DNA of 64,000 nt, from contig NZ_CP151076.1 in assembly GCF_038096165.1 (NCBI RefSeq), positions 5,267,501 through 5,331,500 on the forward strand, read 5' to 3'. This DNA is from Pseudomonas sp. G.S.17 (GTDB lineage Bacteria; Pseudomonadota; Gammaproteobacteria; Pseudomonadales; Pseudomonadaceae). Below, piece by piece: positions 5,306-6,890 of this stretch (position 1 is its first letter; each line of letters starts with the position of its first letter). The position numbers were made by a program, and so were the translations under genes. The notes under the pieces are model-generated. The model saw only the letters and a list, made by a program, of their open reading frames with translations. It made no database searches and was not told the origin of the DNA.

Positions 5306-5371
5306 ATTGGGTGGGATTTGGAGATGCGCAGCTGAGCCAATGGGGCTGGACGTGATGGGCCCCGTAATTGG

Positions 5372-5383
5372 ATGGACTCGCCC
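5372..5383 (+). repeat. Left subterminal inverted repeat of the IS
   Basis: ATGGACTCGCCC is the exact reverse complement of 6789-6800 and also of 5439-5450. It lies 7 bp inside the left end, counting the TA core. Confidence 0.9.
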
Positions 5384-5438
5384 AAGCCGAGGCGTCTGTA
5401 GCGCCACGGTGGCATTCTTAAGAAGCCAACGACAGCGA

Positions 5439-5450
5439 GGGCGAGTCCAT
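5439..5450 (+). repeat. Third, internal copy of the subterminal repeat, over the transposase start
   Basis: GGGCGAGTCCAT has the same orientation as the right-end repeat, and its last two bases are the first two bases of the transposase ATG (5449-5451). With the left-end copy it forms a 12-bp perfect inverted repeat with a 55-nt loop. Confidence 0.85.
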
Positions 5451-6552
5451 GAAAAAGCATACGACCAAAAGTAACGCCTTGTCTTCAGCCGACGTGTCGG
5501 CTTGTTCGACAGTGGCGGTAGATCTTGCCAAGAATGTGTTCCAGGTGGCCGGGGAAGATGCCCTTGGTCAGGTCATTTACGAAGAGCGGATCAAGTCACG
5601 CGAAACCTTTGTGGCCTTTTTACAAAAACTGCCGGCAGGCGTGACGGTGCTGATGGAGACCGGCCCTGGCGCGCAGGCTTGGGCGCGGCTGTTGCAAGCA
5701 CAAGGCAATCAGGCGCGAATTTTACCGGCGCAACATGTCGCCAAACATCGTAGCGGTGCCAAAAATGATCGCAACGATGTGCTGGCGATATTGCGTTCAG
5801 GACGAGATGTAAACATTGCGCCAGTGCCAGTCAAAAGCACCGCACAACTGGCCATGCAGGCTCTGCATCGTGCTCGACAAGGGTATGTAAGGCGGCGCAC
5901 TGCAATGGGTAATCAGATACGCGGGCTGTTGCTGGAACAGGGTATTGCCATGGCGCAAGGGGCGGTGACCCTCAGCCGAAATGTCCCACGTATATTGGAA
6001 GATGCCATCCAGCCATTGCCGGATATGTTGCGCGAGCTGATTGATGAAATGCTGGGCGAATGGAGCCATCTGGGTGAGCGCATCGATGTACTGACGGGCC
6101 GTCTGGAAGCAGCAGCGCGCGAAGATGAGACAGCAAAGCGTCTGATGACAGTGCGCGGCATCGGCCCAATCATCGCCACGGCCTTGCTGGCCAAACAGAC
6201 TGAGCCTGAGCGTTTCGCCAATGCCCGAATGTTTGCTGCCTACTTCGGCACGGTGCCCGAGCAGCACAGCAGCGGGCAAAAAATCCGATTGGGAGGAATT
6301 TGCAGACGCGGAGATGGCTATATTCGCAGCCTGTCGATTCAAGGAGCGCACGCCGTGTTAAGGCAGGTGAAGCCTGATTCGGAGCATCCCGATGATCGCC
6401 GGCTACGACGCTGGCTAAGTCAGCATGGTCAAAAAGGAGCAGCCGTAAGGTTGGCCAATAGAAACCTGCGCATCGTCTGGGTGCTGCTGCAAAACAATCA
6501 GACCTATCGTCGTCAGCCTGCAGGTTGCCAGGAGGCGACGATGAATCATTAA
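5449..6552 (+). CDS. IS110/IS1111-family DEDD transposase (recombinase)
   Basis: RNA-guided DNA recombinase of the IS110 family, with about 367 residues. The N-terminal RuvC-like domain (DEDD_Tnp_IS110) carries the acidic tetrad at about D25 (VDLAKN), E70 (METGPG), D107 and D110 (KNDRNDV). A helix-hairpin-helix-like segment (VRGIGPIIATAL) follows near residue 235. The C-terminal Tnp domain contains EQHSSGQKIRLGGI near 270-285, where a serine of HSSG should be the nucleophile, and RRGDGYIR. The signature FGTVPEQHSSG..R.GGI.RRGDGY.R matches the IS1111 group. The start is the ATG at 5449, with GAGG about 10 nt upstream. No frameshift or premature stop is seen. Confidence 0.95.
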   Translation: MKKHTTKSNALSSADVSACSTVAVDLAKNVFQVAGEDALGQVIYEERIKSRETFVAFLQKLPAGVTVLMETGPGAQAWARLLQAQGNQARILPAQHVAKHRSGAKNDRNDVLAILRSGRDVNIAPVPVKSTAQLAMQALHRARQGYVRRRTAMGNQIRGLLLEQGIAMAQGAVTLSRNVPRILEDAIQPLPDMLRELIDEMLGEWSHLGERIDVLTGRLEAAAREDETAKRLMTVRGIGPIIATALLAKQTEPERFANARMFAAYFGTVPEQHSSGQKIRLGGICRRGDGYIRSLSIQGAHAVLRQVKPDSEHPDDRRLRRWLSQHGQKGAAVRLANRNLRIVWVLLQNNQTYRRQPAGCQEATMNH

Positions 6553-6599
6553 TCAACAGAGTTCTGCCACCGGGGTGCTGAGTCACCTCAACCGCTGCT

Positions 6600-6760
6600 G
6601 AAGAACATTGACCCCAGGTCAGACCGTCGCGGATAGATGCCTACGGTCCTACTGGCCCTTTGAGGCCTTAACGTAATCGGCATACCGCGAGCTTACCCAA
6701 TGTTGGCCAGAAGCCGTAACGCTTCCTCGAACAGGCCTTATACATAGATGCAACCGGGTA
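6600..6760 (+). ncRNA. Candidate bridge RNA / seekRNA of the IS (approximate limits)
   Basis: The 236 bp between the transposase stop and the right repeat carry no plausible gene. IS1111-group elements are known to encode their guide RNA in this 3' region. CGGTCCTAC at 6644-6652 is complementary to GTAGGACCG, the first nine bases of the REP target; the right flank TAGGACCG is still present at 6804-6811. GACCGT (6622-6627) and ACGGTC (6643-6648) form an inverted repeat around this segment and could bound a target loop. GGCC pairs at 6654-6657 and 6664-6667. ATACATA at 6740-6746 repeats the right-end/core sequence at 6799-6805, a possible donor guide. The family placement is known, the pairing is read from the sequence, and the RNA limits are guesses. 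Confidence 0.6.
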
Positions 6761-6788
6761 GCAGTGTTCAAAAGCAGGTTGAAAGTGT

Positions 6789-6800
6789 GGGCGAGTCCAT
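6789..6800 (+). repeat. Right subterminal inverted repeat of the IS
   Basis: GGGCGAGTCCAT is the exact inverse of 5372-5383. Three bp (ACA) separate it from the TA core at 6804. Confidence 0.9.
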
Positions 6801-6803
6801 ACA

Positions 6804-6890
6804 TAGGACCGGCTTCAGCCGGGAGACCGGAACTCTGACGACGCAGCTGCTGCGGATCAATTGCCCCCTCCCGGCTAAAGCCGGTCCTAC
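6804..6890. repeat. REPIN, interrupted at its left edge by the IS
   Basis: Two inverted REP units (TAGGACCGGCTTCAGCCGGGAG and CTCCCGGCTAAAGCCGGTCCTA, each shown only in outline here) flank a 40-45 bp spacer. The usual first base G before TAGG is missing here; it now lies at 5364, left of the IS. Confidence 0.85.

Follow-up and report, generated by a model that had tools for sequence, protein, structure and literature searches.

A predicted guide RNA downstream of the transposase gene of a REP-targeting IS1111-type element in Pseudomonas sp. G.S.17, and its variation with the target among relatives

The 3' region of IS1111 elements is the reported source of the seekRNAs, among them that of ISPa11, which targets the REPs of P. 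aeruginosa, and one natural redirection has been described (PMC11187229). Bridge RNAs have been predicted in 93.0% of IS1111 elements, ISPa11 being among the six presented (PMC11208160), and REP-specific insertion was described for ISPa11, ISPpu9, ISPpu10, ISPsy8 and others (PMC1525189). Here we analyse one such element in a stretch of 64,000 nucleotides of the Pseudomonas sp. G.S.17 chromosome, referred to below as the window. Positions 5365-6803 are an insertion sequence of the IS1111 type (Table 1). By analogy, its mechanism is that of the published IS1111 seekRNAs or bridge RNAs, including that of the REP-targeting ISPa11, and the guide principle itself is already known. A search of the open-licence literature, judged from listings, returned no study of the guide series of this clade.

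As reported in PMC11187229, the elements ISEc11, ISKpn4, ISPst6 and ISPa11 share with the present one the 3' non-coding location of the RNA, subterminal inverted repeats (sTIRs) with extensions of 7 and 3 bp, and a top-strand guide lying 5' of the bottom-strand match, here a candidate one; the REP target of ISPa11 and the natural redirection between ISEc11 and ISXne4 also have their counterparts here. The present case differs from that account in that the RNA is known from sequence alone, the left-target match is short and ten natural guides are compared within one clade. With the bridge RNA of IS110/IS621 (PMC11208160, PMC11208158) the predicted RNA has in common a core dinucleotide that is shared and a target loop with a guide on one side and, as a candidate, on the other, along with putative matches to the donor ends. 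The core is TA in our element, and the RNA lies downstream of the transposase gene (6603-6769); that of the IS110 group is stated to precede the gene, in the left end of the element (PMC11208160). In the accounts of ISPpu9 and ISPpu10 of Pseudomonas putida, all reported copies are in REPs and ISPpu9 has an sRNA downstream of the transposase gene (PMC1525189, PMC8450116); insertion there is reported between the ninth and tenth bases of the REP with a 2-bp repeat (PMC1525189), whereas our element is inserted after the first base, G, of the REP consensus that we use (G^TAGG).

The element and its insertion sites

The ends of the element were placed by the 7/3-bp rule from the literature. They have in common a TA, at 5365-5366 and 6804-6805, which leaves the junction ambiguous by 2 bp. 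The sTIRs are perfect over 13 bp, within the 11-13 bp of near-perfect repeat expected of IS1111, and the extensions outside them, 7 bp on the left and 3 bp on the right, agree with all seven copies found in the host genome. Also as in the IS1111 family, the gene product is a DEDD transposase carrying PF01548 and PF02371, and the non-coding stretch is longer 3' of the stop codon (251 nt) than upstream of the gene (84 nt). The C-terminal domain of the transposase matches IS621 (8wt6, E 9e-5). By motif we located D25, E70, D107, D110 and S274 or S275, which by analogy with IS621 are candidate catalytic residues.

Table 1. Features of the element and of the predicted guide RNA, in coordinates of the window.
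Feature	Position	Strand	Remarks
IS1111-type insertion sequence, 1439 bp	5365-6803	+	Seven copies in own genome: same ends, different outer flanks
Left sTIR ATGGACTCGCCC	5372-5383	+	
Third sTIR copy GGGCGAGTCCAT, covering the transposase start codon	5440-5451	+	At least 10 of 12 matches in 17/17 lineages with a left end
Transposase, 367 aa	5449-6552	+	DEDD N-terminal domain (PF01548) and PF02371
Structured domain of the predicted guide RNA, eight helices	6603-6769	+	In the 3' non-coding region; consensus fold, pair counts
Closing helix	6603-6607 with 6765-6769	+	Consensus fold
Second outer helix	6613-6619 with 6753-6758	+	Consensus fold
Helix 3, closing the target loop	TCGCGG 6627-6632 with CCGCGA 6685-6690	+	Three of six pairs with two-sided changes
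Helix 4, also closing the target loop, inside helix 3	TGCC 6638-6641 with GGCA 6679-6682	+	Invariant in 17 sequences, hence no covariation
Predicted right-target guide (RTG) CGGTCCTAC	6644-6652	+	Complementary to top strand of target G-TA-GGACCG; covariation with target, 18 lineages
Helix 5, hairpin GGCC-loop-GGCC	6654-6667	+	Inside the target loop, parting its two sides; consensus fold
Candidate left-target guide (LTG) CGTA	6672-6675	+	Identical to top strand of the target at the core and to its left; weak in this clade
Candidate right-donor guide CCAAT	6697-6701	+	Complementary to left-end ATTGG (5367-5371); tracks left end in G104, L009
Second arm	6705-6708/6734-6737 and 6710-6714/6721-6725	+	Flanked by CCAAT and ATACATA
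Candidate left-donor guide ATACATA	6740-6746	+	Identical to right end and core (6799-6805); changes with right end in L011, L010
-35 box TTGAAA of the putative circle-junction promoter	6779-6784	+	-10 CATAAT would be 6802-6803 joined to 5365-5368, 17-bp spacer
Right sTIR GGGCGAGTCCAT	6789-6800	+	
Right part of the interrupted REP	6804-6825	+	Its left base is the G at 5364

The host genome contains at least seven full-length copies, a lower bound because the search scored 40 of its 277 initial candidates; the non-coding region may also occur separately. All seven found lie in one orientation at the same point of the REP, G^TAGGACCG (in longer form G^TAGGACCGGCTTYAGCCGGGAG), and their outer flanks differ; a single target site and a single orientation are likewise characteristic of IS1111. 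Most matches in the DNA search of the host genome (42/49) were pieces of 32-51 bp corresponding to the REP that adjoins the right end. Under a strict pattern the host has 160+161 = 321 intact REPs, and GTAGGACCG occurs at 269+257 = 526 sites, compared with 69+61 for the same pattern read backwards.

Fold of the RNA and variation of the right-target guide

Comparison with relatives reveals a conserved fold of the 3' non-coding region, covariation of guide and target, and an association between the occupancy of repeats and the repeat base that the guide reads. Folding the single sequence for minimum energy gave a result no better than shuffles (z -0.74) in which the guide is paired with GACCGT, and the fold of an alignment was used in its place. 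This consensus was built on 17 lineages (L013 was left out) and has 37 pairs: 97.8% of the cells are paired and 10/37 pairs have changed on both sides, values that none of 500 shuffles reached on either measure, and slid controls gave 30-44% pairing. The region of the guide is covered by this fold with its compensatory changes. A covariance model derived from it, R1, has a single match in the window (6598-6780, 210 bits), the window sequence being among those used to build it, and Rfam at gathering thresholds has no match in the window. Of the two sides of the target loop, the 5' one contains the predicted guide and the 3' one CGTA.

The inverted arms GACCGT (6622-6627) and ACGGTC (6643-6648), between which the original prediction had set the guide, are present in the window sequence; as a structure we rejected them, with 60.8% of the cells paired, no two-sided change and one of the six pairs formed in only 1/17 sequences. 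They appear in the window because the guide happens to complement that strand.

All motifs of the original prediction were found where it had placed them, and the complementarity of CGGTCCTAC to the REP target goes beyond chance, since a given 9-mer is expected about 0.0009 times per strand of 251 nt (a simple 4^9 estimate). As in IS1111 seekRNAs, the complementarity is to the top strand of the target. We then compared relatives with transposases 65-81% identical, from 17 further genomes or contigs that we call lineages (18 with our own), whose ends were set from their sTIRs with the same 7/3-bp rule, and in each copy the segment aligned to 6644-6652 was read against that copy's own target. 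Among 63 copies in 18 lineages there are ten distinct guides; complementarity to the target is complete (9/9) in 56 copies, 8/9 in five (L058, L074, L096, L101, L127), 6/9 in one (L118) and 5/9 in one (L079). By inspection, L118 reaches 9/9 if one target base is left unpaired, the mismatch of L127 is a G-U pair, and the right flank of L079 is a piece of another IS copy. The guide in the 3' non-coding part varies with the insertion target, as predicted; homologues in other targets with CGGTCCTAC unchanged had been named as the observation that would speak against a guide, and the comparison gave the opposite.

When each lineage contributes a single target, the match scores 160 of 162, which none of 20,000 shuffles of targets among lineages reached (maximum 145), the relatedness of the lineages meaning that such shuffles overstate independence. 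The misses are in G046 and L013, the latter being an alignment gap that reads 9/9 at the level of copies. The best alternative offset in either orientation scores 100 against 160 at the guide. Taken singly, five of the six variable target positions, +3, +5, +6, +7 and +8, have their unique best columns at 6649, 6647, 6646, 6645 and 6644, in antiparallel order; for the sixth, +4, at which one lineage varies, columns 6648 and 6755 tie as best.

These counts were made after dropping G611 (the same sequence as L009), the distant L019-L024 and L102-L115, which were handled separately, and partial contigs in which no right end could be used (L012, L014-L018, L025, L100); L039 and L040 are listed outside the guide analysis, and L013, which has no left end, was given G as its left base. 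The searches of genus, family and class scored at most five candidates per genome, so that more copies may exist, and those of genus and family were samples of 398 and 348 genomes from larger groups. No relative beyond our own genome was found in a class-wide sample of 369 genomes at E 1e-100, and none of five pattern matches in viral contigs was a relative. The 33 plasmid records, all below 60% identity, were left out of the counts. A protein search with a threshold of E 1e-80 gave 438 proteins, the identity reaching 93%; they come without DNA context, so the guides of the closest relatives lie outside the comparison.

Individual copies have peculiarities. L101 (G046) is a shortened element, with a transposase match ending at residue 294-296 and a non-coding part of 192 nt; its guide AGCTGCTAC is like that of G129, yet it sits in GTAGGAGCT (8/9). 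L013 is a contig-end fragment lacking about 16-18 nt, among them strands that close the target loop; it keeps CGGTCCTAC and is inserted in TAGGACCG. The right flank of L079 (G255) resembles the non-coding region of another copy, not a REP, and copy L078 is about 1.6 kb away, an arrangement that resembles a rearranged or nested insertion.

Because the lineages are related, we also made comparisons within single genomes. For G264, with the guide CGCTCTTAC, a repeat different from the REP serves as target. One pattern recovers 81 empty copies of this repeat, 65 with GTAAGGGCG, 10 with GTAAAAGCG and 6 with GTAAGAGCG (manual count), and 12 insertions were found in it in a re-search that covered copies in this repeat, insertions outside it being invisible to the search. 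Eleven of the 12 are in GTAAGAGCG, compared with 6/81 empty copies (Fisher p 2e-9); as listed, 11 are in TAAGAGCG and one in TAAAAGCG. All 12 carry the guide CGCTCTTAC, and no two are near-identical over 200-320 bases downstream. In G129, with guide AGCTGCTAC, 5/5 copies examined are in GTAGCAGCT, as are 21 among the 100 empty sites listed first out of 913 (p 7e-4). Occupancy goes with the repeat base read by the guide in both genomes, an association and not an experiment. Of the at least 81 empty copies of the G264 repeat, several stand in inverted pairs about 400-700 bp apart (L138-L141 and other places), and apparently belong to a larger unit that is itself repeated.

Along with the original prediction, CGGTCCTAC had alternatively been taken for the relic of a REP half. 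Such a piece would have been captured, or would remain from a previous insertion, and would have no guide function, and in this one genome the motif does equal the REP end. However, the segment is found at one conserved position of the fold in 18 lineages, matching the target of each, and targets of different sequence are matched too, such as the repeat of G264 and the palindromes of L010 and L011; besides, only 9 nt match in the window and the bases on both sides do not continue the REP. The covariation among lineages refutes the relic, which we give practically no chance. It is also very improbable that the transposase reads the REP hairpin and that the RNA matches mirror shared descent alone. 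Most targets are indeed palindromic repeats and the counts from related lineages are not fully independent, but G129 and G275, both about 72% identical to the query and with closely similar non-coding regions, are one guide base apart, and their targets differ at the matching base as the guide predicts in 9/10 copies (the tenth, L096, differs at another base). In G264, moreover, the occupied variant of the repeat is the one that the guide reads.

The region might instead give a small RNA that regulates the expression of the transposase, the role proposed for Ssr9. The element concerned, ISPpu9, is also found in REPs and has an sRNA of about 180 nt downstream of its transposase gene, which is reported to act as a sponge (PMC8450116). 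An RNA that did no more than regulate would not follow the target site, however, and we hold it highly unlikely that the region is a regulator and not a guide; the two roles are not exclusive, and the paper on Ssr9 (2021) is older than those on guide RNAs (2024). We are highly confident, from the fold and the covariation, that the 3' non-coding region encodes a guide RNA (seekRNA or bridge RNA) of about 167 nt or longer that reads the REP target, and the interpretation made from the window alone is supported in substance.

Left-target and donor guides and distant relatives

The candidate left-target guide CGTA was absent from the original prediction. Base 6672 equals target position -2 in 45/62 copies (permutation p 0.02), and nothing was seen at positions further left. 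In our own host, C is at -2 in 73 of 100 listed empty REPs (of 287; manual count) versus 5/7 occupied ones; the own copies show no enrichment of C and therefore do not test this guide. The strand that runs from it (CGTAATCGGCAT, 6672-6683) is similar to the left-junction sequence of the element as inserted (CGTAATTGGATG); its TAAT is common to the RNAs of 18 lineages, and the later positions do not track the left end.

The idea of donor guides, also part of the original prediction, is partly supported. CCAAT agrees with the left end at 76/85 positions (permutation p 0.005), and its equivalents change with that end in two lineages, to CCGAT for ATCGG in G104 and to CTGAT for ATCAG in L009; what does not hold is the outermost (fifth) position, which matches in 10/17 lineages and fails in seven, the fourth matching in 15/17 and failing in two. 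ATACATA is replaced by ATATATA in L011 (7/7) and by ATATAAA in L010 (6/7), two Burkholderiaceae elements whose right end and core are ATATATA, so that it tracks the right end fully in one of them. Among the lineages whose ends vary, those in which the candidate donor guides change along with the ends are a minority. We regard the left-target and donor guides as leads, weaker than the right-target guide.

The covariance model from the alignment was run on 31 other loci. With E values between 4e-5 and 2e-3 it found L013 together with 12 distant IS1111 loci, and at E 0.4 only it found L020 and L022; there was no match in L019, L024, L109, L110, L112 and L113, in five partial or pseudo-copies (L012, L017, L018, L025, L040) or in five loci that surround REPs or target repeats free of the element. 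In the 12 distant loci, with transposases 36-42% identical, the model located the RNA downstream of the transposase gene, and the fold and the geometry of the loop are thus common to relatives at this identity. The left side of the loop matches the own target over 5-7 nt in 11 distant rows, a longer match than to any other target in 9/11. The right side is clear in 4/11, namely L021 (10 nt, CTAACAATCT against its own target AGATTGTTAG) and L102-L104 (7 nt), which are copies of one element and so not independent rows, and loose in the other seven. A direct test of the longest complement on 11 distant IS1111 loci, made before the model placed the loop, gave no signal above shuffles. From these matches, the strict side of the target seems to differ between clades.

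We suggest, as a possible and rather tentative reading, that the guide is a short, fast-drifting address in which point changes over six bases follow the repeat variants of the host and so re-address the element to local intergenic repeats, and that strictness has moved almost wholly to the target's right side, a sister clade being strict on the left and loose on the right. The clade supplies ten natural guides with their natural targets, an unusually clear case of natural retargeting, and within single genomes one repeat base goes with occupancy. The set of copies can serve for the study of guide drift, mismatch tolerance and settling in REPs by IS1111 elements.

Proposed mechanism and expression

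By published work on related elements, the guide RNA would bind the transposase. In the target loop, CGGUCCUAC would pair with the top strand of G-TA-GGACCG, and CGUA, on the opposite side, would bind the bottom strand at and about the TA core. CCAAU and AUACAUA may pair with the joined ends of the element. The transposase would then exchange strands at the TA core, with transposition proceeding via a circle, as in the published systems. The element would spread among REPs in one orientation because its guide reads the REP, which is present hundreds of times.

Transcription of the RNA is probably initiated at a promoter that arises from the joining of the two ends in the circular form. The best sigma-70-like match, with 9 to 11 of 12 positions, spans the junction in 14/14 lineages checked (14 of 18). 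The inserted form has two promoter-like sites at 9 of 12, versus 0.8 in shuffles. In a read-through transcript all 12 bases of the third sTIR copy can pair with the left one, within a segment of 89 nt that includes 12 coding nucleotides (-41.8 kcal/mol). This pairing may keep translation shut off unless transcription begins at the putative circle-junction promoter.
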